Source of the DNA: Liolophura sinensis
Taxonomy: Eukaryota > Mollusca > Polyplacophora > Chitonida > Chitonidae
Length of the DNA: 64,000 nucleotides
NCBI RefSeq assembly: GCF_032854445.1
Contig: NC_088304.1
Coordinates: 12,163,704 to 12,227,703, forward strand
Direction: 5' to 3'
The position numbers were made by a program, and so were the translations under genes. The notes under the pieces were generated by a model, which did no database searches, had not been told where the DNA came from, and saw only the letters and a list, made by a program, of their open reading frames with translations. Of this stretch, positions 3,201 through 63,589 are shown piece after piece. Numbering within the stretch: position 1 is the stretch's first letter; the number at the start of each line of letters is the position of its first letter.

Positions 3201-4338
3201 GTCATCTGTCGTCACAGAGGTCAGTGAATTCAGTATTATCAAAAATCCATAAATGTACAGAAGTTCGCCAGCGCGTTACATGGTAGTTCACTTCAGTCAT
3301 TGTGGAGTGGGACTACCTGGATGATTAAATCATATAAATTGAATGTGGAGTGGGAGTACCTAGATGGTTGAATCGTATAAATTGAATGTGGAGTGGAAGT
3401 ACCTAGATGGTTGAATCATATAAATTGAGTGTGGAGTGGGAATACCTAGATGGTTTAATCATATAAATTGAGTGTGGGGTGGGAATACCTAGATGGTTGA
3501 ATCATATAAACTGAGTGTGGAGTGGAAGTACCTAGATGGTTGAATCATATAAATTGAATGTGGAGTGGAAGTACCTAGATGGTTAAATCATATAAATTGA
3601 ATGTGGAGTGGGAGTACCTAGATGGTTGAATCATATAAATTGAATGTGGAGTGGGAATACCTAGATGGTTGAATCATATAAATTGAGTGTGGAGTGGGAA
3701 TACCTAGATGGTTGAATCATATACATGAGTGTGGAGAGGAAGTACCTAGACGGTTGAATCATATAAATGAGTGTGAAGAGGAAGTACCTAGATGGTTGAA
3801 TCATATAAATTAAGTGTGGAGTGGGAATACCTAGATGGTGGAATCATATAAATTGAGTGTGGAGGAAGTGCCTAGATGGTTGAATCATATAAATTGAATG
3901 TGGAGTGGGAATACCTAGATGGTTGAATCATATAAATTGAGTGTGGAGTGGGAATACCTAGATGGTTGAATCATATAAATTGAGTGTGGAGTGGGAGTAC
4001 CTAGATGGTTGAATCATATAAATTGAGTGTGGAGTGGGAATACCTAGATGGTTGAATCATATAAATTGAGTGTGGAGTGGGAATACCTAGACGGTTGAAT
4101 CATATAAACTGAGTGTGGAGTAAAAGTAACTAGATGGTTGAATCATATAAACTGAGGGCGGCACACCTGCCTCTTTTTATGCTTTTCTGCATGGTACTAT
4201 CTGTGGATTCTAGTTGTACAAGGTAGGTGGTACTTGTTGGAAAACCTGATAACTTTTGTAGCAATTTTCAGTCTGTTATAATCTCTGCAAAGAGGATAGC
4301 TGCTATCAGTGAAGATCAATGATCAATGAAGATCAATG

Positions 4339-7400: not shown

Positions 7401-10400
7401 CTTGTACGACCACGGCCAGCATTATGGTGGGAAAACTCACCATCTGCAAGCTGCTGACAGACGGTCCCATGTACGACTGGAGAGGACGCCAGCATGGACT
7501 TGAACTTAAATCCGATCGCATTGATGAAAGGCGTCATTGTGCTGGCCCAGCACGCTCACTACTAGGCTTCGGAGGCCACAGTAAACGTGAAACAGTTTAA
7601 AATTTAAAACTAGGTGCCACAGGATGAAAATCCGAACCATAACGGAAAGCCAGTTTTGGACGCTGTAGTCAGACGTACATTACAAAAACATGTTTCATTT
7701 GCGGCATTGTTTCATGAAATTGTCTCGTACTTGGCGATGTGTGATGGTTACACATGGGCTCCATTCGGTTTCCTTTCTCACGAACGTAATCAATATCACT
7801 GAAATACTCTATAGAATGACGTAGAAGACAAAGTAAAGCAAGAGTTACAGAAGTAGGCCAATGTCATTCATGATTTATATCAATAGGGTTGTACCAGAAT
7901 CAGTTCCCTGGTTGATTTCAAAAGGGCGTCTGGCAGACGCTGAGGCGGTACTTGAAAAAGCAGCAAAATTCAACGGTCGGAAACTCCCAGAACGATGTCT
8001 ACATGACACCAATGAAAAGAACCTGGGCGAATTCACTTCCGCTCCTCTTCTGACACCAGTTGCTCTTTTCAGAACATCCCAGCTGAGGAAATTCACTTTT
8101 TGTGGTTCGTTATTCTGGTAAGTCTACATACCGGTGTCTTTATTCTAAACTACAATATATTTTTATTCAATAATTGCATAAAATGTAAAAATTTTGGTAA
8201 ATGTAAACACGGATTTATTTAAGTGGAAAAGGTTCCCTATTCAGCCAAATGGACTAGGCTTTGATCGTTAAAGTCATAAGTTCAAACCCAGCTCCCGCTT
8301 CTTCAGCTGCTGCCTTAAAAGACAAGTTTTGTCATGTACATTACGAAGTACGGTTGTTGTCTCCAACACTAAACCATCGTCATACAAAGGAAACATTATC
8401 ACGTGCAGACAGGTAAACTTTCACAGGTTGGTATCAAGCTAGGTCTTACTTTGTAGTACAAGCTGGTTACCGCAAGGTCCAGGGTCCGTATTTATTCAAC
8501 GTCTTTAGACTGAAGTAAAAACTTCAAAGTCAGCTACACTTAAAGTGTTTTTCTCCATGAAGTTTAAAATTTGTACACTGTTTCTTTTTCAGCGGAGCCA
8601 GTCACAATTTGAGTTCTTTTCTGTTACGAGTTCGGCTTTTTAATCGCTTGTAATTTTGGAATTACATCTTAATTTGCTTGATAGATAGGGGCCCTGGTTT
8701 GTTGAGCAATAATAAACTGTTTTATAGGAATTTATTACTGACCAGTTCCACGTCTGATGACACCAACCTGTTCCGGTTTATAACAATTGCAGTTTTGTTT
8801 TCAACATTTTGGCAAAAACATGGTAGTGACCACCCAGTTACCTATGTGTTACATTTTATTTATCATTACTTGAATGGTGCTTTACAGAATCAAGGTGTTG
8901 CAGTCTGAGGAATGAATTGGTACTGTGAGGGGGGCATTCTTTGTAGTACCACTTAGTTTAGAGCCAGTTGGTACCCAGGATGTTATCAATCGATATGGTT
9001 GGTCACAGTTTGCCTGTACAAGTCATAAATCACCAATCAGTTAAAAGGAACCAATAAAAAATGCAACCAGTCCATCAATCCACAAAACTATCTTTTCCTC
9101 CAATCAAATTGCAGCTTTTTGCACATCAATCCGCATAGTATAAACACATATGCGAGACAGACAAATAAACGATGAAAACTTGATTAGCCGTTATATCTTT
9201 ATATTCAAACATTACAAACAAAAAACAAACAAATAAGCAAATACATATATTACTACAATAAAACATAGCCTATTATAAAACATGGATACACGGGCAAGCA
9301 TACAGCATATATACAAAGACATTTAATTGCATATAATATACATTTGGCATCAGCGACTATGAATCCTTACTCACCTGTACGTTTAAATCAGTCATATGCA
9401 TCTACAAAGCTGGGTTGGGGAAGCACACGCTAAGTGTGTAGCTCATTTAAATGGCTTAGGTGAAATTTAGGTGTCGGAAAGAGAACTGTAGTACAAAAAC
9501 TGCGGTGACAACACTTATCACAGAATCCATACAGGCGTCTGCACGTAAAGTTGCACCATAGTTTAAGTTCGTCCGATAGCAAGATTTTACCATGTGATCG
9601 AAGAACAATTGTCAATATACTAAACATGTTATAACTAAAACATACCAAACTATACCAACCAGTAAAAACGACATTTATTGACAACGTCCCATGCACATCC
9701 GGACAACTGAGCGCACGCCTTTTCCAACCCTGCTCACGGTTGACCAAACTCTGCGATGTAAGCCGTGTTCTGTATGGTTGCTTTGTGTTGCTGCGTTCGG
9801 AACAGTTGTCTCCGTATTTGGTTTGAGGATTTCGGACTCCGAGAATTGCGCTTCGGGGGCGTTGATAGGACGAACATTAATTACATTTCGCCGATTCTTT
9901 CTCCTACCCTTCCTCTGATTGGATATGCGGCGACACCCCTTCCTCTCATCTCCATGATTTCCAATTGAACAGATATCTTTGCTCTTCATTGTAATCACAC
10001 TGGTTCTTTTCTTTTTACCAGCATACTCCTTGTCTAATGTGTCGTTTGTCACTTGGGTGAGATCAAATGTGTCTATACTGGGACTTATCGTAAGCTTTTG
10101 TAACTCAGATATGTCCTCAGCTGAGCTAGAATCGTTTTTGTTGCATTCGGTACGGTCAAGATCTGATTCTGAAGAAGAACTGTCCAGTGATGCCAATAAC
10201 AGGTCTTTGCTGATCGTCCTTTCGTCCGTTCCCATAGATATAGCTCCCGGAGCGTTCCAGCGAGGTAACACGTCAGAATCACTTTGTTGCCATCCACTGG
10301 CGATTCCGAATATAGGTTTATTTTCCGGGTCTGGACAGAAAGACATTCGATCTTTTGTGTTCAACAGATAATGCAAATCTCTCTTGATCAGACGTCCATC

Positions 10401-13400
10401 CCTTTTCGTAGAAGAGTATAAACCACCACCTGGGTCACAGCCGGAATCTTGAAGACTGCAGATGGAATTATTGTCCATATGGGATTTAAGGATCAACGAG
10501 TTATCAATGTCTGGTGTATTGGCCGGAGTATTTGGCGTACTGTCTGTTTGCAGAAGGCGCAATTGGGTGTTAGCAAAATGTCTACGAAGACTGTAAGCAT
10601 CCATTTTTGACTGAGCTTCAAAAACGAGGTATTCTTCTGTACTTCCATTTGGGCCGCAATTTAATTTTCCGTTTGAGCGCTTGAGATCATAGCTTTTCTC
10701 CTGTATGCGATTAGCTTTAAACTCGACTTCAAGATCCGTTTTGGGGAGGCCAATGGACTTCTGGTAATTTGAGGTTGACATTTCTTCACTAGTCGCTGTA
10801 TTGCTGGTTTGGAAAGCCTTAGGACTTTGAGTCTCACTGATGATGCCTTTCTTTGTTGATTCAATACCAACTCCTGAGTCAGTGATATCGGTTGTTTCGT
10901 GGTCATGCTTTCTCACCGGAGTGATTTTTGGTAAAATATTCGTCGGTCTAGGGATAGTCCCTGACAAATTCTGCGCATTTGAATTCTTAATGTCTTCGTT
11001 TGGAGTAAAACAGGATTTATCGCTCACCAAATCCGACGAGCTGTCCATGCAGAGTTCGTTTATATCTGTGTCCACGCTTTCATCATCACTGGGGTGAGAT
11101 CGCTGAGTGAAACATATGTCCACGCTATCATTATCATTTTGGCGAAATCGATGAGTGAAGCATGCCGTATTCAGTTCTTTTTGTTTGTCCTCCTTTCTTA
11201 ACATTTGACCAAGTTCTATTGCGGAGTCAAAATCCGCCCAAATATCATCATCCATGCTGGACAATTGGGAAGGGAGTCCAACACGATTATGGGTAAATAT
11301 GGCGATGTCAAAATGGTACCTGGGAGGGTAAAGACAAATCAAATGTAATAGGCATACATCAAACCCGGTATTACACTTTTTCGAGCTAAAATCTTATTAC
11401 ACTTTATTGTTAAACAAGATCCCTGGAAATTAGTTTCCAACAAACCAATTTATTTTTAAACTACCATCGACAAGACATTTGATTAGCATTTAATTAGCAG
11501 AAGTTCTTAAACATTTCTTTTATTTCAGAACAAACAGTGAGACCACATACCCTTGTGAGTTAGCAAAAACCTCATGACATGTTAAACCGTCTACAGTGTT
11601 GAAACAGAGTTTATAGGATCAGGGCTCTCTTCATTTTATATTTATTTCATGCTACACTCAAAACGTTTTCACTTAAGTGATGGCGGTCAGGTATATGGGT
11701 TGAGGAAACCTGAGTGCCCGACGTTTACAGCCACCCTTGAATAGAAATGCGGCAAACCTCCTTACCTCCTTAAAGTCGCTGGCTTCATCTCCGGTCGCAC
11801 GTGGGAAGGTCTGGCAACAACCTGCGGATGGCCGTGGGTTTCCTCCGGGCTCTGTCCGGTTTCCTCCAACCATAATGCTGATCACCGTCGATCAAGTGAA
11901 ATATTCTTGAGTACGGCGTAAAACACCAATCAAATAAATAAATAAACAAATAAATAAATACCTAAATCCCTAAACACTCAGCGGAAACAGCTCTGTTCGA
12001 ACAAACCCCCTCATTGGTCAAATGCTGGACAGTCGTTTTAACATTCAGCGACAGTTACATATGGAGAGAAAAACCAGGGTGTATCAAAACCTTAGCTGTG
12101 TTTCCGGTATATATTACATGATAAACTGTAAATACTTTATAATTATTACTGGAAAAATAGCCTGTGCTTTACGAGGACGGTAATAAAGGTAAAACCTAGA
12201 AAACTTACCTTATTTGCAAAGTCTGGAGGTTTGATATCACGAGAATATTTCTCTTGATGTCTCTAAATTGTCAACATCGTATTATCATGAAGACAAGAGG
12301 GATGTCAACAGTGAAACAATCACCCCTGTGACGTTCCCTAGTAACGTGACGTCACAATGGCAGCGTCAGAGCTCCCGGCCTGAATCATTTTATTCGTGTC
12401 AAATGTTCCTTCCCTAGCGCATCATGATGACGTCACATTGAAGACAATACAACGTTACAATAGACACTGCTACATTGTCATATTGCTGTCGATGTGTAAT
12501 AACCAGCTGTGACGAAATAATGGCTCAAGGTCCTACTTATATATATATATATATATTAAAATCTTCCGGAGAACACTACAGACTCCATACGTGAAAGGTC
12601 GAGGGAACGAGAACTCATACCGCATTCACGTAAATTAAACACGTTAAATGTCTTCAACTTTTGCAGTAGTAAGACGCTTTGCTTGAAAATGGGAAATGTG
12701 AAAAAAAATCCCAAGTGTATTCAGTATTGTATCTAATATTTCCACCTGTCCATGCCTTGATGACGCATTTGCATAGTAAAAATCAAAGACAGGAGCCTAT
12801 ATCTCTGTTTATATCGTAAACCAGACGCCGGTTTACAAACATGGTTGCATATTACGCTTTCTCTCGTGTCTCCACACAGGTTCACTCACGTGGTTGTGTG
12901 TTAAGGTCTGCCTCAAGTCTTTACACCGGCTTACTAACATGGTCCTGTGTTACAGTGTCTCATGTCTCCACACAGGTTTATTGACGTATTGGTGTTTTTC
13001 TGTCTGTCTCATGTCTCCACACACGCTGACTAATTTGATCTTGTATTACGGTCTGACTCATGTCTCCACACAGGTTTACTAACGTTGTCGTGTATTACGA
13101 TCTGCCTCAAGTCTTTACACAGGCTTACTAACATGGTCCTGTATTACAGTGTCTCATGTCTCCACACAGGTTTATTGACTTATTGGTGTTTTTCTGTCTG
13201 TCTCATGTCTCCACACACGTTGACTAACTTGGTCGTGTATTACAGTCTGTCTCATGTCTCCACACAGGTTTACTAACGTGGTCGTGTATTACAGTCTGTC
13301 TCATGTCTCCACACAGGTTTACTAACGTGGTCGTGTATTACGGTCTGTCTCATGTCTCCATACAGGTTTACGAACGTGGTCCTGTATTACGGTGTCTCAT

Positions 13401-16400
13401 GTCTCCATACAGGCTTACTAACATGGTCCTGTATTACAGTGTCTCATGTTTCCACACAAGTTTATTGACGTATTGGTGTTTTTCTGTCTGTCTCATGTCT
13501 CTACACACGTTGACTAACTTGGTCGTGTATTACAGTCTGTCTCATGTCTCCACACAGGTTTACTAACGTGGTCGTGTATTACGGTCTGTCTCAGAACGTC
13601 GCCAGTCTCTCAGGAGATCTATACTTGAACTTCTTTCTGCTGTCAGTTGTTGAGATCCCGTCCCTCGCGTTGGCCGTCCTGCTGCTCTACAGGTGAGAAA
13701 AAAAAATGCTCTACCACAAAGATGCACTCGATCTTCTCCCTCAAATTCTTTTTACTGATCGTGGCAATTAAAATAATATACTGTTCACTGTTATTTAGCT
13801 CTGTTCTGAAAGTTTTCCTTATACATACCTTATTGCCGTTGGATAAGAAATTTGCATTTATTAATTTATTCATGTATTTATTTATTTATTTCATTGGTGT
13901 TTTACGCCTTAATTTGCATTTAACTTACACCTGTATCTTTACACGTATTTGTTTTTGAAGTTTGCAATTTTGATTGATACCTTAAGAGGGCATTTGCATT
14001 ATGTTTTCTGATGATTAAATAAAGGTAAGTTTAGAGAGTTTTTTTTCTAGCTATACATTCTTGTGCGTTTTCACAGAAGACGATCAGCCAAAGAACCGCT
14101 TTAATACTTTCCTGCTCTAACCCCTCGTTGCTGAGCACCAAGAGAGGCAGCAGCAAGTACGATTTTTACAGTCTAGGGTATGACCCGTACAGGATTTGAT
14201 CCCGGTTATCCCGAGTTCGATGCGGACACTCTAGCCATTAAACTACTGAAGCTGTCAAGATTATACAATTATATGAATCGAACTCGTTGTTCTATTTGAC
14301 ACAACGACTTCAAGGCATGCTTGTTACCACTGGACCAATGCGGATTGGAGACTTTTGGATTCCCCTGCCTTCGTCGTTTGTGGGGTGCGGGTCCGACAAC
14401 AAGACGTTGACCACGCTTTTTGTGCCGTTTGCACTGTCGTACATTCGTAGAAGACCACAATCTTAAATAAAATTTGCCCAAGGTCGTTTACTCCAACCGT
14501 GGTAATCCGGTTTCATCCATCCATCCATCAAATTAATCGCCATCGTTAACGTGAGAAATCCTTGAGTGTGGCGTTAAACAATATTGAAAATGTTTGAAAT
14601 AAACAACACGCATTCAAATGTTCTTAATTAGCTGTGGTCATTATGCAATTAGGGGCCTCCGTGGCTCAGTTGGTTAGCGATGACCCAGAAGCCTCCCACT
14701 AATGCGGTCGTTGTGAGTTCAAGTCCAGCTCATGATGGCTTCCTCTCGGGCCGTACGTGGGAAGGTCTTCCAGCAACCTGCGGATAGACGTGGATTTCCC
14801 CCGGGCTCTGCCCGGTTTCCTCCCACCGTAATGCTGTCCGCCTTCGTATACGTGAAATATTCTAGAGTATGGCGTAAAACACCAATCAAATAAATAAATC
14901 AGTTTTCAGTTAAACGTCAATCATTCATTTATTCAGCCGGCTATTATTTATGTATTGTAGAAAAGGACGACGATATCCCACCGGTGCTCTATATCTAATC
15001 TGTGGGGTGGCTTGTGTTGCCATACCATTTCTCCCGAAAGACACAGGTATACGCCACATAATCCAACATGTGATAAATTGTTCCAAAGTACGTTAGCTAT
15101 AACCTATGCTGAGATCATATTACTGATTGATTTAATACGGGATTGAAAACACATATTGCTCATTTCACACTTATGTCGAAAGCCGAAGTTTGCAAAGAGA
15201 TTGAGGAATTTTGAAATTTGAAGAAATGCGCTTTTGAACATCTGGTTCAGTTATCAATAGATTTAAACAGAGTGTATCAAAAATTAAGGAATAACTTATT
15301 ATTTTTAATAAAGAGTTTTTGAAAACGTTCTTTATCTATTTTTTGACTATAGTAAATACTGGTCTTAAATGTTAATTTAATATTGATAGTTTTAATAACT
15401 ATATTTTAGCGGACGGCACCGATTTGAGCTGGCTTACTGTTGTCGTAGCCCTGATGGGAAAATTTTCAATAAACGCAGCGTTTACCATGTCATCAGTGTA
15501 CATGGTGGAGTTATTCCCTACTGTGATAAGGTAGGTGCAGTTATTCCCTACTGTGATAAGGTAGGTGAAGTTATTCCCTACTGTGATAAGGTAGGTGCAG
15601 TTATTCCCTACTGTGATAAGGTAGGTGCAGTTATTCCCTACTGTGATAAGGTAGGTGAAGTTATTCTCGGCTGTGATAAGGTAGGTGGAATTATTCCCTA
15701 CTGTGATAAGGTAGGTGGAGTTATTCCCGGTTGTGATAATTGATGAAGTTATTCCCAGCTGTGATAAGGTAGGTGAAGTTATTCCCAGCTGTGATAAGGT
15801 AGGTGGAGTTATTCCCTACTGTGATAAGGTAGGTGGAGTTATTCCCGGTTGTCATAATTGATGAAGTTATTCCCAGCTGTGATAAGGTAGGTGAAGTTAT
15901 TCCCAGCTGTGATAAGGTAGGTGGAGTTATTCCCTACTGTGATAAGGTAGGTGGAGTTATTTGCGGCTGTGATAAGGTAGGTGGAGTTATTCCCGGTTGT
16001 GATAATTGATGGAGTTATTCCCTACTGTGATAAGGTAGGTGAAGTTATTCCCATCTGTGATAAGGTAGGCGGAGTTATTCCCGAGTTTGATAAGGTAGGT
16101 GGAGTTGTTCCCACTCTGACAATGTGGGTAGAATCATTTCCTACGGTAATAATGTGGGTGGAGTTATTTCCGGCTGGGACAGCGTGGTTGGAATCACTCC
16201 TGACTCTGATAATGTGGTTGGAATCACTCCTGACTCTGATAATGTGGTTGGAATCACTCCTGACTCTGATAATGTGGGTGGAATCACTCCTGACTCTGAT
16301 AATGTGGGTGGAATCACTCCTGACTCTGATAATGTGGGTGGAATCATTTCCATCTGTAACGATAATTATTTCAGACTGTGATATTGTGGGTGGAATTATT

Positions 16401-17477
16401 TCCCACTAGTGTGATAATGTGCGTGGAATTATTCCCCACTGTGATGATGGGGTTGAAATCATTCGTGACTATAATAAATATATGGGTGGAATAATTCCCG
16501 GTTGTGGTGATATGGATGGAATTATTCCCGACTGTGATAATTGATTGTGATTATTCCTGACTATGGTAATTTGGGTGGAATTATTTTCGACTATGATGAT
16601 ATGGGTGGACTTATTTCCTACCGTGATAATATGGGTGGGGTCTTTCCCGACTTTGATAAGATAGGTGGAGTTATTCCCAACTGTGATAAGGTAGGTGGAG
16701 TTATTCCCGACAGTGATAAGGTAGGTGGAGTTATTCCCTACTGTGATAAGGTAGGTGGAGTTATTCCAGACTGTGATAAGGTAGGTGGAGTTATTCTCTA
16801 CTGTGATAAGGTGGGTGGAATTATTCCCGACTGTGATAAGTTAGGTGGAGTTATTCCCGACAGTGATAAGGTAGGTGGAGTTATTTCCGACAGTGATAAG
16901 GTAGGTGGAGTTATTTCCGACAGTGATAAGGTGGGTGGAGTTATTTCTGACAGTGATCAGGTAAGCGGAATTAACGCTCCTGACAAGCTTCTGATCCGTG
17001 TGCCATGTGCCCAGTCTTGAAACGACATTTACAAAAACATTATTGTAGAAGTTGAAAGAGCTAGTGTTTAAAGGTACTGACCAGCCAATATATAACACAT
17101 ATGTCATTATTTTTATTTCCAGGGGAACTGGCTTCACCTTCACCAACATATTTGGAAGGGTCGGTGGAGTCTTGTACCCTTACATCCTTTACCTGAATAA
17201 AAAGGAAGAAATCGGTGCAATTCGAGTGTCTCTGCCATACCTGATCTTCGGGGTCATCGCCATAGCAACGGCTGCAGTGGTTCTTCTACTGCCGGAGACA
17301 CGGGATCGGATATTGCCGGAAACTATCGAAGATGTCGAGAGCAAATCGGCATTTTCTAAAATTGTTAAAGAAATGAAGATTAATGTCAGCGAGAAGGATA
17401 AACATGAAAAATCATCAGAAAATGGAATCTGGTCAACTGGAAAGGACAACGAGGCATTTCGGGGAACTGCCCTTTGA
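125..17477 (+). CDS. SLC22-like organic ion transporter (MFS), nine exons
   Basis: A 12-helix major facilitator of the SLC22 (OCT/OAT/OCTN) family, expected to carry organic cations, anions or carnitine-like zwitterions across the plasma membrane. Exons: 125-277, 3031-3219, 5005-5235, 7041-7244, 7887-8117, 13558-13692, 14961-15046, 15410-15530, 17123-17477, about 567 residues, the family's usual size. Seen: N-terminal helix; a long cysteine-containing extracellular loop with N-glycosylation sequons; WDLVC; the MFS signature [51 protein letters not shown]; and [12 protein letters not shown]. Substrate cannot be told. Exons 1-3 and 5-9 join in phase. Exon 4 has an extra T, and its junctions with exons 3 and 5 are out of frame by GT-AG rules, so this is either a recent pseudogene or a sequence with assembly indels. 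An antisense gene lies in intron 5. Confidence 0.82.
1299..1470 (-). repeat. Unclassified interspersed repeat, copy 1
   Basis: A 170-190 bp sequence found five times here: this copy, 6448-6631, 43945-44115, 47380-47492 (partial) and 54040-54190. One end reads gaggcctggtccctttgca, the other ctagagggcgtg. No coding capacity, no tRNA boxes and no clear terminal inverted repeats seen. Confidence 0.6.
1634..1770 (-). mobile_element. tRNA-derived SINE (family 1), truncated
   Basis: Reverse-oriented tail and body: tttatttgattgggcttttacg followed by the conserved ccgcaggttgttgcaagacc block. The tRNA-like head is absent. Confidence 0.6.
2275..2690. repeat. Diverged direct duplication (two ~150-bp copies)
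   Basis: The stretch at 2275-2440 (tttcaactgattttaatcat ... tatttctcag) is repeated in diverged form at 2545-2690. Both end in a similar tatttctcagt-caag block. No gene recognised. Confidence 0.5.
2718..2890 (-). mobile_element. SINE family 1, near-complete body
   Basis: Reverse-oriented copy with cgtactcaagaatatttcac, cttcccacgtacggcc and ctggacttgaactcacagcg, internally deleted. It sits in intron 1, 140 bp upstream of exon 2. Confidence 0.7.
3031..3219 (+). CDS. SLC22-like exon 2 (extracellular loop)
   Basis: Acceptor ttattcaaag at 3021-3030, donor gtcagt at 3220. Codes 63 residues in phase 0 on both sides. Contains two N-I-S and one N-E-T glycosylation sequons, and [10 protein letters not shown] followed by SSVVTE, which runs into WDLVC of exon 3 exactly as in SLC22 proteins. 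The exon is too short to stand out as an open frame and is identified by splice sites and family pattern. Confidence 0.8.
3301..4155 (+). repeat. 43-bp minisatellite in SLC22-like intron 2 (~20 copies)
   Basis: About twenty units of 43 bp, each starting tgtggagtgggaatacctag and ending catataaattga. Two units lack a few bases. The first copies are diverged and the middle ones nearly identical. The unit does not resemble the neighbouring exon. Confidence 0.95.
4343..4436. repeat. (TA)n-(TTA)n compound microsatellite
   Basis: About 45 bases of TA followed directly by about 48 bases of ATT repeats. Confidence 0.95.
4760..4945. mobile_element. Two abutting SINE fragments
   Basis: 4760-4840 is a SINE tail of the type 'gatgtggcgttaagccacaa' with (cattcatt)n. 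4840-4945 is a reverse-oriented family 1 3' half with gtcgtactccaggatattcc and gagcccgggg. They end about 60 bp upstream of exon 3. Confidence 0.6.
5005..5235 (+). CDS. SLC22-like exon 3 (TM2-TM4, MFS motif)
   Basis: Acceptor cctacgtacag ends at 5004. Codes [12 protein letters not shown], helix 2, the cytoplasmic MFS signature [11 protein letters not shown], helix 3 and the start of helix 4 ([10 protein letters not shown]). The best donor is GTA|gtaagt at 5236, phase 0. The exon end and its donor are copied twice more downstream (5382 and 5557). Exon 4 needs one carried base, so the junction is out of frame as read. Confidence 0.8.
5211..5710 (+). repeat. Three tandem copies of the exon 3 end and its donor
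   Basis: Units of roughly 150-175 bp start at 5211, 5358 and 5533, each with ttcatcg then gttcgttgt(a/g) followed by gtaag. Downstream of each donor the units share a G-rich run, a tgtcacgtgag-like block and a caaag-aaaacaaaac block. The first copy is the real exon 3 boundary; the others are intronic. Confidence 0.85.
6448..6631 (+). repeat. Unclassified interspersed repeat, copy 2
   Basis: Best-preserved copy of the family described at 1299: gaggcctggtccctttgcat at the left, gatgacaacacagcattt in the centre, actagagggcgtg at the right. Its left end is preceded by a 70-bp family 1 SINE scrap at 6335. Confidence 0.6.
6680..7010 (+). repeat. Degenerate ~45-bp tandem repeat before exon 4
   Basis: Six or seven diverged units built on ctgtgaacct-tattcccacc-ttctcatgtt. 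The array ends about 30 bp before the exon 4 acceptor and may supply its pyrimidine tract. Confidence 0.5.
7041..7244 (+). CDS. SLC22-like exon 4, frameshifted
   Basis: Acceptor ttctctccag ends at 7040; donor GAG|gtaggt at 7245. Codes [14 protein letters not shown] then, after a shift of frame, [16 protein letters not shown] through [13 protein letters not shown], matching helices 4-6 of SLC22. The shift is one extra T in the T6 run at 7077-7082. With five Ts the family sequence reads straight through. Neither edge keeps phase with exon 3 or 5. Confidence 0.75.
7375..7570 (-). mobile_element. SINE family 1, near full length
   Basis: Reverse-oriented copy from the ccactcaaaaatatttcact tail to the ggcttcggaggcc tRNA-like head. 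Diverged; in intron 4. Confidence 0.7.
7887..8117 (+). CDS. SLC22-like exon 5 (PES motif, cytoplasmic loop)
   Basis: Acceptor caatag ends at 7886. Codes [20 protein letters not shown], a variant of the SLC22 PESPRWL motif with Pro in place of Arg, then the large cytoplasmic loop to helix 7 (FTFCGSLFW). Donor TTCTG|gtaagt at 8118 leaves phase 2, completed as Trp by exon 6. One extra G at the exon start breaks the join to exon 4. Confidence 0.8.
8235..8420 (+). mobile_element. Possible tRNA-derived SINE (family 3)
   Basis: A B-box-like gttcaaaccc follows aggctttgatcgttaaagtc, an arrangement similar to the SINE at 20655. Weak and diverged. In intron 5. Confidence 0.3.
9673..9678 (-). promoter_or_regulatory. 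Poly(A) signal overlapping the stop codon
   Basis: On the minus strand the last codons are TGT CAA TAA followed by A, so AATAAA spans the last sense codon and the stop of the 526-residue gene. It is a perfect hexamer. A second minus-strand candidate was not picked out nearby. Confidence 0.45.
9675..11255 (-). CDS. Nested gene, 526-residue protein of unknown function
   Basis: Intact single-exon coding region. Chosen start is the ATG at 11255 ([19 protein letters not shown]), because a splice acceptor (ccctcccag) precedes the leader exon at 11319 and the inverted copy at 21399 begins at the same residue. The protein is hydrophilic and serine-rich with acidic clusters at the N-terminus ([19 protein letters not shown]), a conserved middle block ([16 protein letters not shown] and [11 protein letters not shown]), a basic stretch (KGRRKNRRN) and a basic amphipathic C-terminus ([16 protein letters not shown]). 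No signal peptide or membrane helix is seen and I do not recognise a family. The basic patch could be nuclear targeting; that is inference. A 5' non-coding exon ends at donor aataag|gtaagt (12219), giving an 899-bp intron. It lies antisense in intron 5 of the transporter. Confidence 0.7.
   Translation of the reverse strand: MDDDIWADFDSAIELGQMLRKEDKQKELNTACFTHRFRQNDNDSVDICFTQRSHPSDDESVDTDINELCMDSSSDLVSDKSCFTPNEDIKNSNAQNLSGTIPRPTNILPKITPVRKHDHETTDITDSGVGIESTKKGIISETQSPKAFQTSNTATSEEMSTSNYQKSIGLPKTDLEVEFKANRIQEKSYDLKRSNGKLNCGPNGSTEEYLVFEAQSKMDAYSLRRHFANTQLRLLQTDSTPNTPANTPDIDNSLILKSHMDNNSICSLQDSGCDPGGGLYSSTKRDGRLIKRDLHYLLNTKDRMSFCPDPENKPIFGIASGWQQSDSDVLPRWNAPGAISMGTDERTISKDLLLASLDSSSSESDLDRTECNKNDSSSAEDISELQKLTISPSIDTFDLTQVTNDTLDKEYAGKKKRTSVITMKSKDICSIGNHGDERKGCRRISNQRKGRRKNRRNVINVRPINAPEAQFSESEILKPNTETTVPNAATQSNHTEHGLHRRVWSTVSRVGKGVRSVVRMCMGRCQ
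11780..11965 (+). mobile_element. SINE family 1, 3' three-quarters
   Basis: Forward copy: cgcacgtgggaaggtctggc, gggctctgtccggtttcctc, aaatattcttgagtacggcg and a (aaat)n tail. In the nested gene's 5' intron, opposite to it. Confidence 0.75.
12219..12340 (-). promoter_or_regulatory. 5' non-coding exon of the nested gene
   Basis: Ends at aataag|gtaagt on the minus strand (donor 12218). The sequence ttgtcttcatgataa...tcgtgatat...actttgc is shared, inverted, with 20430-20527 upstream of the second copy. Conservation across a long-diverged duplicate supports a transcribed leader. Its 5' limit is not certain. Confidence 0.5.
12333..12435 (-). promoter_or_regulatory. CRE and RFX X-box-like promoter of the nested gene
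   Basis: Two perfect palindromic CREs (TGACGTCA) at 12347-12354 and 12428-12435. Directly beside the first, 12333-12345 reads on the minus strand GTTACTAGGGAAC, an RFX X-box-type inverted repeat. The CRE next to an X-box half-site is kept in the inverted duplicate (20384-20405). CREB/ATF and RFX binding is inferred from motif only. Confidence 0.5.
12830..13600 (+). repeat. 47-49 bp minisatellite made from the exon 6 acceptor
   Basis: About fifteen tandem units. Each holds the 3' splice site tgtctccacacag followed by the first ~36 bases of exon 6 (gtttactaac... tattacggtctgtctca). The last unit runs into the true exon 6. Unit length is not a multiple of three, so reading through shifts frame at every unit. 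Some units carry a diverged 47-bp version. Confidence 0.95.
13558..13692 (+). CDS. SLC22-like exon 6 (TM7-TM8)
   Basis: Starts at the last of many identical acceptors (ctccacacag, ending 13557). Codes [23 protein letters not shown] and [15 protein letters not shown], the helix 7-8 region. Phase joins exon 5 and exon 7 exactly. Ends TACAG|gtgaga. The first 36 bases or so of this exon plus its acceptor form the unit of the upstream 49-bp minisatellite. Confidence 0.85.
14085..14250 (-). mobile_element. SINE family 2, partial
   Basis: Reverse of the block found forward at 36600-36740 and reverse at 51885-52060: ctaacccctcgttgctgagc, a small inverted repeat near gaggcagcagcaag, then a tRNA-like B box in ggatttgatcccgg. 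In intron 6. Confidence 0.55.
14490..14600 (+). mobile_element. SINE tail with (ccat)n
   Basis: Reads accgtggtaatccggtttca then (tccatcca)n and gagtgtggcgttaaacaat, the 3' end style of mollusc-type tRNA SINEs. No head seen. Confidence 0.45.
14652..14899 (+). mobile_element. SINE family 1, full-length reference copy
   Basis: Complete forward copy: tRNA-like head with A box (gtggctcagttggttagcg) and B box (gagttcaagtcc), a conserved body (tgggaaggtcttccagcaac, gggctctgcccggtttcctc), then tattctagagtatggcgtaa and an (aaat)n tail. It is pol III-type and non-autonomous. Ends 60 bp upstream of exon 7. Confidence 0.85.
14961..15046 (+). CDS. SLC22-like exon 7 (TM9)
   Basis: Acceptor tgtattgtag ends at 14960, donor ACAG|gtatac at 15047. 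Codes [15 protein letters not shown] and the helix ending AIPFLPKDT; the GRR-P pattern is the second MFS cytoplasmic motif. Phases fit exons 6 and 8. Confidence 0.8.
15410..15530 (+). CDS. SLC22-like exon 8 (TM10)
   Basis: Acceptor atattttag ends at 15409. Codes [18 protein letters not shown] and [14 protein letters not shown], the conserved E-(L/V)-(F/Y)-P-T-x-x-R motif. Donor ATAAG|gtaggt at 15531. Its last 26 bases and donor seed the 30-bp array that follows. Confidence 0.85.
15505..16962 (+). repeat. 30-bp minisatellite made from the exon 8 donor (~48 copies)
   Basis: Units are exactly 30 bp: donor and linker gtaggtggag then ttattccctactgtgataag, which is the last 20 bases of exon 8. The first unit is the coding exon itself; the next follow without a break. 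More than twenty units keep an intact AAG|GTAGGT donor. A diverged block (about 16100-16540) uses a gtgggtgg version. Since 30 is divisible by three, long artificial open frames run through the array. Confidence 0.95.
17123..17477 (+). CDS. SLC22-like exon 9 (TM11-TM12, C-tail, stop)
   Basis: Acceptor tttatttccag ends at 17122 and completes the Arg of VIR, giving [18 protein letters not shown]. Contains [11 protein letters not shown], helix 12, the PET...LPET signature and a charged 50-residue cytoplasmic tail ending GTAL. A SINE follows within 20 bp of the stop, so the 3' UTR is built from repeats. Confidence 0.85.
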
Positions 17478-17494
17478 TTTATTTTGATTTATTT

Positions 17495-17955: not shown

Positions 17956-18299
17956 CAGAGGTCATGGTATAGAGGTCGTCCTCTGTCCTACATCCACCAA
18001 CGAATTTGCTATGTCACTCTGTTTAACAATACTGCTTTCTTGTGGAAACATGTCTTTCTTGTGTATATGCCTAATAAAGCACACGAATTATTATTTTTTT
18101 TTAAATCTATTGCAAAGACTGGAAAAACTATTCTCATGGTCCTCTCATGGTAGCGTATTTGCACGATACTTTTTGTGTGTGTTTTTACAATGTAGTTTTA
18201 TCTGTCGCGAACTAATTACAACAAAATAATGTTTGCATGCAATTTATACAGCGTATAACGGTATGTATGAATAATATGAATAATATGTAAGTAACTGGA

Positions 18300-18985
18300 A
18301 AAAATTAGGGTACACGTGTACGAAATGGCGAAGATAGGAATAATATCACTGGAAAGAAGTAGGATATACATGTACGAAAAGGCGAAGATATCAATAATGG
18401 CACTGGGAAGAAACAGGGTACACATGTACGAAAAGGCGAAGATGTGAATACTGACACTTGAAAGAATCATGGTATACATGTACGAAAAGGCAAGGACATG
18501 AATAAAGGCACTGGAAAAAATCAGGGTACACATGTACGAAAAGGCGAAGATGTGAATAATGGCATTGGAAAGAATCATGGTACACATGTACGAAAATGCA
18601 AGGGCATGAATAATGGCGCTGGAAAAAATCAGGGTACACATGTACGAAAAGGCGAAGATGTGAATTATGGCACTGGAAAAAATCAGGGTACACATGTACG
18701 AAAAGGCGAAGATGTGAATAATGGCACTGGAAAGAATCAGGGTTAACATGTACGAAAAGGCGAAGATGTGAATAATGGCATTGGAAAGAGTCAAGGTGTA
18801 CGTGTACAAAAAGGCGAAGATATGAATAATGGCACTGGAAAGAATCAAGGTGTACATGTACAAAAAGGCGAAGATATGAATAATGGCACTGGAAAGAAAA
18901 CAGAGTATACATGTACGAAAAGGCGAGGATGTGAAGTATGGCACTGGAAAGAATCAATTTACACATGTACGAAAAGGCGAAGAGA
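18300..18985 (+). repeat. 54-bp minisatellite (~12 copies)
   Basis: Units of 54 bp: gtacgaaaaggcgaagatgt, gaataatggcactggaaaga, atcagggtacacat. Because 54 is divisible by three, both strands have long open frames through it, one of 242 codons on the minus strand. No splice sites or flanking coding sequence support translation. Confidence 0.95.
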
Positions 18986-21245: not shown

Positions 21246-21398
21246 AATTATGGCCCAAACAGAATACAAATGTGCAAAACCATGTCTGATATAATTATAT
21301 GTACATAACTTTTCATTTGTCTTTATCCTCCCAGGTGCCATTTTGCCATCCCCTCGTTTGCCCACTATCGTGCTAGACACCCTTTTCAATTAGGGAAA

Positions 21399-22355
21399 AT
21401 GGGTGATGATATTTGGGCGGACTTTGACTCCGCAATAGAACTTGGTCAAATGTTAAGACAGGAAGACAAACAGAAAGATCTGAATAGTGCTTGGTTAACC
21501 CAGCGATCTTGCACCAGTGATGATGATAGCGTGGACACAGATATAAACGAACTCTGCACGGAGAGCTCGTCGGATTCGGTGAGCGATAAATCCTGTATTA
21601 CTCTAGAGGAAGGTATGAAAAACTCAACTGTGCAGAATTTGTCAGAGCCCATCCATACAACGCCAAATATTTCACTAAAATTCACCTTGGCGAGAAAGCA
21701 TGACCAGGAAACCATCGATACCACTAACTCAGGAGTTGGTCTTGAATGTACCAAGAAAGGCAACATCAGTGGGGCCCAAAGCTGTAAGGCTTTCCTAATA
21801 AACAATGCAGTGACTAGTGAAGAAATAAACCTGATGTCAACCTCAGAAATACCAGAAATCCACTGACTTCCCCAATACGGATACTGAAGTCGAGTTTGAA
21901 GGAAATCGTATACAGGAGAAAAATTACGATCTCACACCATCTAGTGGGGAAAAAATAGCTGCATCAATACAAGAATAGAAGAAGTTCTCGCTTTTGAAGC
22001 TCAGTCAAAAATTAATGCTTACAGTCTTCGTAGATATTTTGCTAACACCCAATTGCGCCTTCTTCAATCGGAGAGTGCACCAAATACTCCGGCCAATACT
22101 CCGGTTGGTATTCAAGATGCTGACTGCGACCCAGGTGCCGGCTTATACTCTCCTACATCGAAACCTAGACGTCTGATCAAGAGAGATTTGCAATACCTGT
22201 TGAACCTAAAATATCAAATGTCTTTCTGTCCAGACCCCGAGAACCAGCCTAGATTCAGAAGCGCCAGTGGGTGGCAACAAAGTTTTTCTGACGTGTTAAC
22301 TCGCTGGAACGCTTCAGGAGTTACTATGGGAACGGATGAAGGGGAAAGTCTGTAA
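21399..22355 (+). pseudogene. Inverted duplicate of the nested gene, broken
   Basis: Begins [19 protein letters not shown], closely matching the intact gene at 9675-11255. The acceptor (cctcccag, ending 21334) and a leader exon ending at 20527 are preserved, so this is a copy of genomic DNA and not a processed retrocopy. The frame runs 155 codons, shifts after EIPEI, continues as DTEVEFEGNRIQEKNYDL to a stop, shifts again, and reads FEAQSKINAYSLRRYFANTQ through SGWQQSFSDVL to a stop at 22355. It lacks about 24 residues in the middle and the whole basic C-terminus. The leader donor is GC (aataag|gcaagt). A truncated 155-residue product is conceivable. Confidence 0.8.
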
Positions 22356-25436: not shown

Positions 25437-28400
25437 GGCGGTATGTCTATGCTTTTTCACTCTTTTGCTCATGTTTACTTTGGCCACATTGAATTGTAAT
25501 GGATATAAATATGTTAAAGGGAGCTCTGGACTGTCATATTAATTCAGACCTTATAGTGCTACAAGAAACACACTGGGGTGATGCTGTCATAGAAAATATT
25601 AAACACGTTATAGACGGCAATATATATTATGGTAATTCTCCAGACAAGTCTAAAGATGTAGCCTTTGTAATCAGAAAACATCATAAACATAACCTTAATG
25701 ATTAATGGTTTTTTTTTCAGAGACTCTGGTCGTTATATCCAGGTAACAATTTCTATTCAGGGACATGAAATCGATGTTATTAATGTTTGCGCTCCAAATT
25801 CTGTTAAGGAGAGAATTGACTTTTTTAAAAATCTGGTACATATAGTAGGCTATAGACCCCTCATTATGATAGGCTATTTTAACACTGTTTTTGCACGGGA
25901 GGATCGCTCAACCCTTACCTTGGAGTCAGACTAGTCTAGGGCGGTATTATGCAATACTATGCAGACTTACAATCTAGCAGCCTTGTGGCGTACTAGGCAC
26001 CCTGATATGATTGGGTTTACGTGACGACGTCAGGTGGGCGGTGTGTTGCGCCAGAGTAGAATAGATCATTTTTTAATTTCTAGACAGTTGTTGGCTAGTT
26101 GCCAGCTCGTCGGTGTAAAATTTTCTCCTTATAGTGGCCATTACATCGTTTATCCAAAGTTTGACTTTTCTAGTGTGGAAAGAGGCCCGAGTCTGTATGT
26201 TTTTAATAACACGTTGTTAAATGACGATGAGTTCTGTTCTGCCTTGAATCAGCTAACTGACAAACAGTTAACTTGTCCATTGTATGTACACGACATTTGC
26301 ACATGTTGGGAAAACCTTAATTACAAAATCAGGGCCTTTCCACAGTCATATGGCAAAAGACGTCAGAGGGGAAAATATGAAGAAATCGATGATATTCATA
26401 GAAAATTAGACCACGACTATAGGCGTGCCAGTGTTGTGTCTAATTATAATTTAAAGCATATTGTGCAACTGGATGGTGAACTGGATGTTTATGAAAAGGA
26501 GAAGTGTAAAGGTGCTATTTTGTGATCTAAAGCCCTTTATGTACACGAGAATGGTAAAACACAAAGTTTTTCCTGAATTTGAAAAAAACACAAACAACAA
26601 GATAAAACCACGAAAAAGTTGACGGCGTCAAACTGCAATATTGTACCAGATTATAGAGACTTTTTAGGCGAAGTGTACTCATATAATATTAAACTTGTAA
26701 AAGTATGGCCCGATTGATCAAGAAGCCAAGAAATTTGTGTTAGGTTCTTTGAGGTAGCCTTAAATGAAGAAGATAGGCTCCTGTGCGAGCAATCTGTGAC
26801 ACTGGAAGAAATGAGGACATCTTTAGGTGGTATGGCCTGCAATAAAAGCCCGGGTAATTACGAGCTAACGGTGGAGTTTTTCGCCACTTTTTGGGGAGTT
26901 AGGTCCATTTCTGTTTGATGTATATGAGGATATCTTCAGCAGAGGGCAACTAACAAGAGAAATAAAAACTGGAGTTATATCACTTATTTATAAGGAGATA
27001 GGAGACAGGCCTCTTCTTAGAAACTAGCGTCCAATCAGCCTACTTAACGTGGATTATAAGATTATTTCTAAATGTATGGCAAACCGACTTAAGAAATTCA
27101 CTGGCACATTCGTTAGTGAATGTCAAACATGTGTTCCCGGTAGGGATATAGCCGACACGATGAGAAATCTACGTGATGCCTTATACTATGTAGAGAATGA
27201 TGACGTCGAAGCATATTTTATTGAACTCCACCAAGAGAAAGCCTTCGACAGAGTAGCACGTGGGTTTTTAAATGATGTTTTAACACAGTTTGGATTTGGT
27301 GATAACTGTTGGAGGTGGATTTCCATTTTCTACACCGACATAGGGTCTTCTGTGAAGTGCAATGAGCATGTGGCCCAATATTTTCCCGTATGTAAATCTG
27401 TGCGACAGGGTTGACCCATCTCCGTACAATTGTATGTTCTTAGTGTTGAGCCTTAAGGCTCATTCATAAGACGATCACCAGGTGTGCAGGGTATTGATAT
27501 CCCTGCCATGAACACACAATGTCTGCTATTTCAGCAAGGAGATGACACAGCTGTAACGGTCCGTGATCGCTCCTCTGGTAAAAGTGTGTTACATGTTGTC
27601 AACAAATATTGTGAGGTTTCAAATGCCAAGGTAAATGTTGAAAAATCTGATGTTTATTGCTGTGGTGCTAATAATAACGTTGACAAAATCGAAAATATTC
27701 CTGTTGTAAAGGACTCGATAAAAGTCTTAGGCGTGCATCTTGGTTCGAAGCAATTACATATGTAATGAGCGGAATTGGTGATAAAAACTCAAAAGTGTAA
27801 AGTGCATTGTTAATATTTGGAATCAACGCAAATTGTCCTTGTAATGTTAAGTCGCCATTATAATGTCCTTATTATTGTCTAGATTCTGGTACAACATGGC
27901 CGTTTTACCAGTCCCAAATGTTATTTTGCGTGATATAAAGCAAATCTGCAAAGATTTTCTTTGGAGCGGTAAGGCTCATTTGGTGTCTTTCGGAACAGCT
28001 ATAAATGACAAGACTAAAGGTGGTTTAGGCCTGCCAGATATACGCAGCAAAGTGAAGGATTTGCAGCTGAAATTTATGGGCCGGTTTTCCGATGATACAC
28101 GGTCTGCTGTATGGAAGACCTCCTTCAAGTTTTTTTTTTATCGAATTGGGAAAATCTGAACTTCTACATGCCTTTGTGTTACGTGTCATTGAATAAATCC
28201 TTGTTACGCGGTATTCCTCCCTTTTACGCCGAAATGGTGTTAGCCTGGTCAGACTTGTGGAAGAATGTAACAGTGTGTAATACAAATGCTCATCAGGTTC
28301 TTTATCAACCCGTTTTCTATAATCCAAACATTGCTTTAGAAAAACACTCTCAAACCTTCGATGTTTTTGTTAAAACAAAATTGTTTTGTATTAAGGATTT

Positions 28401-29075
28401 TCTGTATATTGTTGTCCCCGGTTTTCTACCAGAAAGTATTGTTGTTGAGAAGGTGTTAGATGAATGCTCTGATGCAAATATTTCTAAAGTTATGCGTGTG
28501 TTTTGCGTTATAAAATCTGCGATACCAATGAAATTGGTAAATGAATTGGGTAGAATTAATAATTGCTTTGAAACAGAGAGTGAACTTTGTATCACTGTGA
28601 AGGAATCTGTTTTGCAACTGTCTACACTCACAAGTATTTTGTACAAATATGTCACACAGCCTCTGATAAAGGAACCAGCCTCTTTCAGATACTGTTGGTA
28701 TGGTGTGGGTACTTGTAACACTCACTTGAAAGAGTCCAGAACCGGTACAGCTGGACTGGAAAATTCTTCATCGTGTCATTTACAGGAATGAAAAGCCTTA
28801 CCGCATCGGTTTAACTGATTGTGACAAATGTAATCTATGTGGCGGTGATGTAGATGATTTGTTTCATTTATTTATTAGCTGTCCTAAAAATTCAGACTTT
28901 ATAATACATATCTGCGATATTCTGGAAACATTATTTTGCTCTGCTCACCCGAGCATTTTAAACCAAATGTCCCACCAGGAACTGCTGTTTTTCGGAGTAA
29001 CCAGGAAGGTGAAAAATGTAAACTTTGTTTTTGTCAGTATTGTCTGTAGTTTAGCCAGACAGGCTATGTACTAAA
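25437..29075 (+). pseudogene. LINE ORF2 (endonuclease-reverse transcriptase), inactive
   Basis: In order: AP-type endonuclease start (TLNCNGYK near 25485), SDLIVLQETHWGD (25540), GRYIQVTISIQG and VINVCAPNS (25725-25800), LIMIGYFN where family members have GDFN, and SRIDHFLIS...SGHY (26050-26150). Reverse transcriptase: RPISLLNVDYKIISK (from 27030, after a stop), FIELHQEKAFDRV (His for the first Asp), SVRQG, then QQGDDTAV at 27535. The C-terminal region has GGLGLPDIRSKVKDLQLKF (28020) and a CNLCGGDVDDLFHLFISC zinc motif (28830). At least six stops or shifts. Confidence 0.75.
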
Positions 29076-55683: not shown

Positions 55684-58600
55684 TTCTGACGATTCCTATC
55701 TTCCACCACCCAATGACGATTCCTATCTACGAACACCCTCTGACGATTCTTCTCTACCATTACCCTCTGACTATTCCTGTCTTCCACCAACCTCTGACGA
55801 TTCCTATCTACGATCACCCTCTGACTATTTCTGTCTTCCACCACCCTCTGACGATTCCTCTATTCCGTCATCCTCTGACAATTCCTATCTTCCAACACCC
55901 TCTGCCGATTCCTCTCTTCCACCACCCTCTGACGATTCCTATCTACGATCACCCTCTGACTATTTCTGTCTTCCACCACCCTCTGACGATTCCTCTATTC
56001 CGTCATCCTCTGACAATTCGTATCTTCCACCACCCTCTGCCGATTCCTATCTACCACCAACCCCTGACGATTCCTATCTACTACCACCCTTTAATAATTC
56101 TTATCTTCCACTACGATTCCTGTCTTCCACCACCCTTTGACGATTGATCTTTTCCGTCACCCACTGACGATTCCTATCTACCACCATCCCTTGACAATTC
56201 CTATCCACCACCACCCCCTCACAATTCCTATCTTCCACTACCCTCTGACGATTCCTGTCTTCCGTCACCCTCTAACCAATCCTGTCTTTCACTACCCTCT
56301 GACGACTCACATCTTCCACCACCTTTTGACGATTCCTATCTTCTGTCACCCTCTAACGATTCCTGTCTTCCACCACCCTCTGACGATTCCTATCTACCAC
56401 CACTCTCTGACAATTCCTATCTACCACAACCTTCTAACAATTCCTATCTTCCACTACCCTCTGACGATTCCTATCTTCCACTACCCTCTGACGATTCCTA
56501 TCTTCCAGTACCCTCTGACGATTCCTCTCTTCCACCACCCTCTAACGATTCCTGTCTTCCACCACCCGCTGACGATTCCAATCTACCATCATCCTCTAAA
56601 GAGTTTTATCTACCACCACACTCTTACAATTCCTATCTTCCACTACGCTCTGACGATTCCTTTTTTCTTCTACCCTCTCTCGATTCCTGTCTTCCACCAC
56701 TCCCTGACGATTCCGCTCTTCCACCACCCTCTGACGATTCCTATCTTCCAACACTCTCTGACGATTCCTATCTTCCGTCATCTTCTGACGATTCTTCTCT
56801 TTCACCACCCTTTTACGATTCCTCTCTTCCGTCACCCTCTGACGATTTCTCTCTTCCGTCACCTTGTGACGACTCCTATACTACCACTACCTTCTGACGA
56901 TTCCTATCTACCACCACCCTCTGAGGATTCCTATCGTCCACTACATTCTGACGATTTCTATCTTCCACTACCCTCTGACGATTCCTATCTACACCATCCT
57001 CCTACGATTCCTATCTTCCACCACTCTCTGACGATTCCTTTCTACCACCACCCTATGTGAATTCTTCTCTCCTGTCACCCTATGACGATTCCTCTCTTCC
57101 GTCGCCCTCTGACGATTCCTATGTACCACCACCCTCTGAGGATTCCTATCTACCACCACCTTTAAACGATTCCTATCTACCACCACCCTCTGGCGATTCT
57201 TTTCTTCTGTCACCCTGTGACGACTACTATCTACCACCACCCTCTAATGATTCCTATCCACCACCCTCTAACGATTCCTATCTTCCGTCACCTTCTTACG
57301 ATTCCTATCTACAACCACCCTTTGAGGATTCCTATCAACCACCACACTCTGACGATTCCTATCTACCACCACCCTCTGTGGATTCCTTTTCTTCCTTTCT
57401 TCCTTTCACCCTCTGATGACTCCTCTCTTCCGTCACCCTCTGACGATTCCTATCTACAACCACCCTTTGAGGATTCCTATTAACCACCACACTCTGACGA
57501 TTCCTATCTACCACCACCCTCTGAGGATTCCTTTCTTCCACCACCCTCTGATGACTCCTCCCTTCCGTCACCCTCTGACGATTCCTATCTACCACCACCC
57601 TATGACGATTCCTCTCTTCTACCACCCTCTGACGATTCCTCTCTTCCCTCACCCTCTAAGGATTCCTATCTACCACCAAGTTCTAACGATTCCTATCTTC
57701 CGTCAATCTCTGACGATTTCTCTCTTCCGACACACTATGACATATCGTCTATTTCGACACCCTCTGACGATTCCTACCTACCACCACCCACTGAGCATTC
57801 CTATCTACCAACACCCTCTGACGATTCCTATCTTCCACTACCCTCTAACAATTCCTATCTACCACCACCTTCTAACGATTCCTGTCTTTTATCTACCACC
57901 CCTCTGACGATTCCTATCTACCACCACCCTCGAACAATTCCTATTTTGCACTACTCTCTGACGATCCCTTTCTTCTTCCACCTTCTGACAATTCCTATAA
58001 ACCACCACCCTCTAACAATTCCTGTCTTCCTCCACCCTCTGACGCTTCCTATCTACCAACACTCTCTGACGATTCCTTTCTTCCGTCACCCTCTGACGAT
58101 TCCTCTCTTCCACCACCCTCTTACAATTCCTGTCTTCCACCACCCTCTGACGATTCCTCTCTTCTGTCACGCTCTGACGATTTCTCACTTCCGTCACCCT
58201 GTGACAACTCCTATCTACCACTACACTCTGACAATTTCTTTTTACCACCACCCTGCAACGATTTCTATCTTCCACTACCCTCTGACGAAACATAGCTACC
58301 ACCACCCTCTGACGATTCCTCTCTTTCGTCACCTTCTCACGATGCCTATTCTCCACCACCTTTAAACGATTCCTATCTACCACCACATTATAATGATTTC
58401 TATCTTCCGTCACAATCTGACGATTCCTCTCTTCCACCACAATCTGACGTTTTTTCTCTTTTGTCACCCCATGACGATTCCTCTCTTCCGTCACCCTCTG
58501 AGGATTTCTATCTACCACCACCCTCTGAGGATTCCTATGTACCACCACCCCCTGATGATTCCTATCTACCACCACCCTCTGACGATTCTTCTCTTCCGTC

Positions 58601-63440: not shown

Positions 63441-63589
63441 TCTCTCACTTACCCGCAACTTTACTACGTCGCCATTTTCAGAACGCTTTTCTCTTCTATC
63501 ATTGTCCGAGAACTTCTTTGTTTCTGTTCAGTTCTGCCTGACAGAATTGGACTACTTTGCTAGTATTTCAAGGTTAAGAATTAATGGAC

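Follow-up and report, generated by a model that had tools for sequence, protein, structure and literature searches.

How is a splice site chosen when the same site has been copied, unit after unit, into the intron beside it? The question is raised by a plus-strand gene of the mollusc Liolophura sinensis in which two exon ends are continued as tandem arrays of their own splice junctions. We analyzed this gene within a 64,000-nt stretch of contig NC_088304.1 (the window; positions below are counted from its first nucleotide).

Exons 5 to 9 of the gene chain into one open frame that ends in TGA: exon 5 (donor end at 8117), exon 6 (13558..13692; 135 nt, acceptor AG at 13556-13557), exon 7 (14961..15046), exon 8 in the numbering of the initial annotation (15410..15530; 121 nt), and exon 9, the last coding exon (17123..17478, including the TGA). 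Exons 6 and 8 are also supported by alignment to OCT2. Exon 8 ends at 15530 and exon 9 begins at 17123; the initial annotation had given 17122 for the exon 9 acceptor. Exons 1 to 4 are placed approximately, with the end of exon 2 read by eye. An approximate concatenation of exons 1 to 9 matches Pfam PF00083 (E = 2.9e-19), and exons 5 to 9 match PDB 8et9_A, an OCT2 chain (E = 1.3e-46), in an alignment that is ungapped at both array-bearing junctions; the top PDB matches for exons 5 to 9 are labeled OCT2, SLC22 member 3, and organic cation/carnitine transporter 2. By sequence membership, the host gene is an SLC22 transporter. The introns at both array-bearing junctions match existing exon joins, and no new intron is evident.

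Other repeats and open frames lie in and around the gene. Intron 2 contains a 43-bp array of 20 copies (3301-4156) that begins ∼80 nt past the donor of exon 2, which it leaves out, and a 54-bp array of 12.8 copies (18294-18983) downstream of the gene overlaps no modeled coding junction. Antisense within intron 5, on the minus strand, is a 572-aa stop-to-stop open frame (9675-11393), to which an interrupted copy on the plus strand at 21309-22355 looks related by eye. Broken open frames at 25671-29074 resemble, again by eye, pieces of a non-LTR retrotransposon. At 55685-63445, 27-bp repeats extend over about 7.8 kb; they are strongly C-rich on the plus strand and contain long open frames with SDDSYLPPP-like repeats in shifting frames.

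The first junction array begins inside exon 8. TRF places it on the plus strand at 15504-16963 (period 30, 49.0 copies, score 1317; the best of 50 dinucleotide shuffles scored 58), and unit segmentation counts 49 units at 15505..16964, a trailing degenerate partial unit being left out. The array starts 26 nt inside the exon, and its unit is the last 26 exon nucleotides plus GTAG. Unit 1, GTGGAGTTATTCCCTACTGTGATAAG/GTAG (a slash marks the exon-intron junction), encodes VELFPTVIR and the donor; the initial annotation had likewise opened the array within exon 8 on the end of this peptide. The +5 and +6 bases (GT) of the donor nonamer AAG/GTAGGT come from the following unit. The array holds 22 copies of this nonamer, AAGGTAGGT, in 22 of the 49 units (500 shuffles: mean, 0.02; maximum, 1), where "more than twenty" had been claimed; there is one further copy in the window, at 4220.

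Counting as strong any donor with a U1 duplex energy of −9.2 kcal/mol or better, we found strong donors in 26 of the 49 units; ten units have GT without G at −1, nine have lost the GT, and four are gapped. The proposed ∼48-fold amplification is thus about right for units but not for donors. Units 1 to 20 and 40 to 49 are 77 to 100% identical to the exon copy; units 21 to 39 form a degenerate middle zone (16099..16664, plus strand) with 63 to 83% identity and zero strong donors. Units 8, 12, and 17 are 28-nt variants that lack a donor. A dispersed satellite is not supported: the 26-nt unit pattern, allowing up to 3 mismatches, has at least 27 matches in the 609-Mb assembly, every one of them in this array.

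A false expansion created by assembly has some precedent, as one lancelet array of comparable kind (a mirage, see below) was apparently aberrantly assembled in a draft genome, according to excerpts of PMC3087553. Here we think such an artefact very improbable: unlike the product of a copy-paste error, the units differ from one another (witness the 28-nt variants and the decayed middle), and similar arrays occur at other loci.

Which donor, then, does the gene use? The authentic donor, AAG/GTAGGT of the first unit, occupies 15531..15536 and contains TAG at 15532-15534. With any later donor, the frame would run ATA AGG TAG and stop at this point. The initial annotation had placed the stop in the TAG within each donor; the codon is TAG, but it is always this first one, whichever later donor is used, and because the frame closes here for all of them, the accompanying claim that the first donor has to win is supported. 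Read-through of exon 8 to the strong last donor was considered and rejected, given the stop in unit 1 and a protein alignment that is ungapped at 15530/17123.

The neighborhood of the true donor does not set it apart. Its 33-nt context recurs exactly at three other units (15803, 15921, and 16725), in support of the ladder of equivalent donors that had been proposed to extend from the exon end. Units 11, 15, and 42 match the exon copy exactly. The donor of unit 49, CAG/GTAAGC (16961..16966, plus strand), pairs most strongly with U1, at −11.0 compared with −10.0 in unit 1. Exact recurrences and a stronger last donor together mean that local sequence cannot mark the true donor.

Use of a wrong donor would have a predictable cost. 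With unit 2, the stop would lie 26 nt from the junction; with each of the other 24 strong decoys, the distance would be at least 56 nt; since the usual rule for nonsense-mediated decay is 50 to 55 nt, only unit 2, among the strong decoys, would escape decay. From these numbers one could build a regulator, in which decoys would divert a length-dependent share of transcripts to an isoform that stops after VIR, and to decay, and so tune the transporter: all 25 strong decoy donors share one stop, and for 24 of the 25 it meets the distance just given. We regard this as improbable, because junction arrays are present in unrelated genes too and because the donor columns are not clearly spared from mismatches. 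In units 21 to 39, the donor columns average 6.3 mismatched units of 19, above the 4.6 of the other columns; in units 1 to 20 plus 40 to 49, they mismatch slightly less (2.0 versus 2.9 of 30 units), with no clear sparing. Nor did mismatches at the three codon positions reveal clear coding constraint, either in units 2 to 20 plus 40 to 49 (27/10/32) or in units 21 to 39 (34/43/49).

The initial annotation also suggested that the array acts as a sink for U1 snRNP, for which we found no support, and a related idea is that it serves as a U1 platform suppressing premature polyadenylation. The array does offer 26 U1-complementary sites over 1.46 kb; however, 23 of the 49 units have no strong donor, and the single AATAAA/ATTAAA in intron 8 (16473) falls within the zone that has none. 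A nucleus contains about one million copies of U1 snRNP, so titration by one locus is unlikely. Either U1 role seems to us scarcely credible.

A stronger competitor is oriented 5′-to-3′ scanning, or first-come commitment, in which the first transcribed donor wins. It accounts for the donor array, and it is how human F7 intron 7 is read in a review (PMC6627357, in excerpt). It concerns site choice and is compatible with a minisatellite origin of the repeats. The donor-side array alone cannot separate scanning from exon definition.

The same gene provides a second array, at an acceptor, that was absent from the initial annotation. TRF and segmentation identify a 49-bp array of 16 units at 12820..13593 (plus strand); 15 of the 16 units are 47 or 49 nt long, insertions excluded, and the first unit is partial. 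This array ends 36 nt inside exon 6, with a unit of 13 intron plus 36 exon nucleotides, so that its last unit is the true acceptor together with the first 36 nt of the exon, tgtctccacacag/GTTTACTAACGTGG.... Unit 11 is identical to the last unit (49/49 nt), and CAG/G is kept in 10 of the 16 units. In a frame test of the other AGs between 12820 and 13558 (n = 20), none kept the reading frame. One of these 20 is found 22 nt before the true acceptor, at a position where A in unit 15 replaces the G of the exon copy.

The exon piece of the acceptor unit includes TACTAAC, which agrees with the branch-point consensus at every base, in 7 of the 16 units, exon copy included, and YTRAY is found at the same position in 13 of 16. 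TACTAAC lies 40 nt before the AG of the next unit (for example, 13325 to 13365), although most units also have an earlier AG. Some units could therefore be candidate complete 3′ splice modules, with the proviso that the motif alone is not rare: there are three further copies elsewhere in the window.

Considered together, the two arrays make opposite demands. The coding frame calls for the first donor and the last acceptor, and some decoys reproduce the true sites locally without a difference (over 33 nt for the donor, 49/49 for the acceptor), which leaves the choice to position or wider context. Applied to acceptors, a first-come rule would settle on an upstream unit (for instance at 12880 or 12976) and break the frame, since the true acceptor is transcribed after all the others; scanning restricted to donors escapes this objection, and we hold scanning to be a possible, if doubtful, account. 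The acceptor array speaks for an exon-proximal rule over a first-come rule. A rule favoring the site nearest the exon body, as in exon definition, would cover both arrays, and exon-proximal choice in both is, judging from reading frame and precedent, the most likely arrangement. With its true donor first and its true acceptor last, the host gene offers a means of telling exon definition apart from first-come or linear-scanning rules.

Our preferred reading, to which we give a probability of roughly 0.82, is that both arrays are mirage-type minisatellites whose exon-proximal sites are used, at a small cost in unproductive splicing. Tandem-repeat growth, by replication slippage or unequal exchange, would have been seeded across an exon-intron boundary, and each repeat unit would thereby carry a piece of exon plus a splice site. 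The unit adjoining the exon body would still function, the remaining units being intronic decoys, and splicing would pick the exon-proximal site: the first donor and the last acceptor, as in exon definition. If donor unit 3 or a later one were occasionally used, the stop would lie at least 56 nt upstream of the junction and lead to nonsense-mediated decay; transcripts spliced from unit 2, at 26 nt, may escape decay and yield a transporter cut after VIR. Leakage to decoys may be larger than this reading assumes, given that unit 49 outpairs unit 1 with U1 and that the true acceptor is preceded, at 22 nt, by a further AG.

Are such arrays peculiar to this gene? We surveyed 69 exon-match loci of SLC22 and sugar transporters and of CCT chaperonins (28 from an SLC22 search, 11 from PF00083, and 30 of the 70 matches to PF00118, the CCT family), which gave 138 edges; profile-match ends only approximate exon ends, and some loci overlap. 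Tandem arrays cover 7 of the 138 edges. Control positions were covered at 13 of 138 (800 nt outward), 13 of 138 (1200 nt outward), and 3 of 138 (60 nt inside), so edges are no richer than flanks, and among these 138 edges there is no sign that arrays are attracted to, or selected at, splice sites. Five of the seven covered edges were verified as junction arrays, four in genes for CCT chaperonins; the figure of 5 in 138 should be read neither as a rate for the whole genome nor as a complete tally. By search, the verified yield was 1 of 28 loci for SLC22, 0 of 11 for PF00083, and 4 of 30 for PF00118.

Three of the verified arrays are at donors in CCT loci: a 66-bp array at L059 with CAG/GT in 7 of 7 units, a 109-bp array at L070 with G/GT in 5 of 5 full units, and an array of about 60 bp at L067 with GT in 5 of the 6 units read. 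The fourth, at L068, is a 41-bp acceptor array with ACAG in 12 of 13 upstream units and few exon nucleotides per unit. We take L059, L067, and L068 to be CCT gamma-like and L070 to be CCT epsilon-like. The three gamma-like loci all lie within 7 kb and are probably one gene; this proximity, with the overlap among loci, means that the survey loci are not independent. The fifth, of 110 bp, is a donor array in an SLC22 paralogue on the minus strand (L034), at the equivalent ...EIFPTVVR/ junction; three donors were found there, GT being already part of the motif used to find them.

Two covered edges were dropped. At L016, the repeat is an in-frame 51-bp duplication inside the exon, and at the other edge of L068 a 27-bp array is intronic, the profile match having overrun the exon. 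The SLC22-like exon of L016 carries a perfect duplication at 1623-1727 in which 17 codons, GASSMIARVGGMIAPYM as translated by eye, are repeated, and the CCT exon of L068 (605-2426) has arrays on both flanks (27 bp × 43 and 41 bp × 13). A further tandem arrangement seen in the genome concerns PF14830 (Haemocyan_bet_s), which has eight tandem matches within 12 kb of one contig and none in the 14 prokaryote controls; this domain marks molluscs, and a lancelet origin of the genome was rejected on that ground.

With edge coverage no higher than that of the flanks, neutral growth tolerated by splicing is enough to explain the arrays as baggage. One figure counts against a neutral reading: within the host gene, junction arrays occupy two of the eight modeled edges (exon 5 donor to exon 9 acceptor), more than the survey's five verified among 138, although the numbers are small. 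It is conceivable, if unlikely, that this genome carries mirage arrays as a standing feature and that the paired ladders form a length-variable dial, in which the array length of each allele would set how much pre-mRNA is lost to decoy sites and decay. The presence of junction arrays in CCT genes as well suggests that many natural experiments in splice-site choice may be available in molluscs, as in lancelets, and that such arrays are possible raw material for new introns.

Splice-site minisatellites are a known phenomenon, of which the donor array is a very long mollusc example; among the papers listed from an open-licence library, we found no report of junction arrays in a mollusc. Tandem acceptors go by the name NAGNAG. 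Tandem donors of the form GYNNGY are alternative sites of one exon that compete a few nucleotides apart (excerpts of PMC2423196). The competition between sites of one exon is common to both of these classes and to our arrays, but their paired sites are 3 to 6 nt apart, whereas here many sites follow one another at 30 or 49 nt. Intron gain by AGGT tandem duplication also places duplicated splice signals inside repeats; in contrast, the introns here match existing exon joins.

Human F7 intron 7 is closer. According to excerpts of PMC6627357, this intron has several highly similar 37-bp repeats, the first of which holds the authentic donor, and normal splicing uses the most upstream donor only. 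The donor array likewise has its authentic site in the first of near-identical repeats; it differs in belonging to an unrelated gene and sequence, with a 30-bp unit, 49 copies, and a decayed middle.

The closest parallel is with the mirages of lancelets, described in excerpts of PMC3087553 and PMC3902484 as minisatellites that cross exon-intron boundaries on the donor or the acceptor side, keep AG/GT in many but not all units, and adjoin the authentic exon edge. The genes include Adh3 (units of 10 to 72 bp; somatically unstable), BflGb6 (acceptor side), and BflGb9 (donor side), and TnC and PGBD5 are cited as well. The parts of PMC3087553 that we draw on report 6 and 3 units in two BflGb6 haplotypes, suggest regular splicing from globin RT-PCR and Adh3 data, and propose mirages as a source of new introns; for PGBD5, regular splicing is argued by analogy (PMC3902484, in excerpt). 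The arrays described here resemble mirages in having minisatellite-type units of tens of base pairs (30 bp × 49 and 47/49 bp × 16) that span an exon-intron boundary (26 exon nucleotides plus GTAG; 13 intron plus 36 exon nucleotides) and keep their signals in part (strong donors in 26 of 49 units; acceptors in 10 of 16). This likeness is structural. They differ in their host, a mollusc, in their length (49 donor units, compared with 6 and 3 in the BflGb6 haplotypes), and in the presence of a donor and an acceptor array in one gene.
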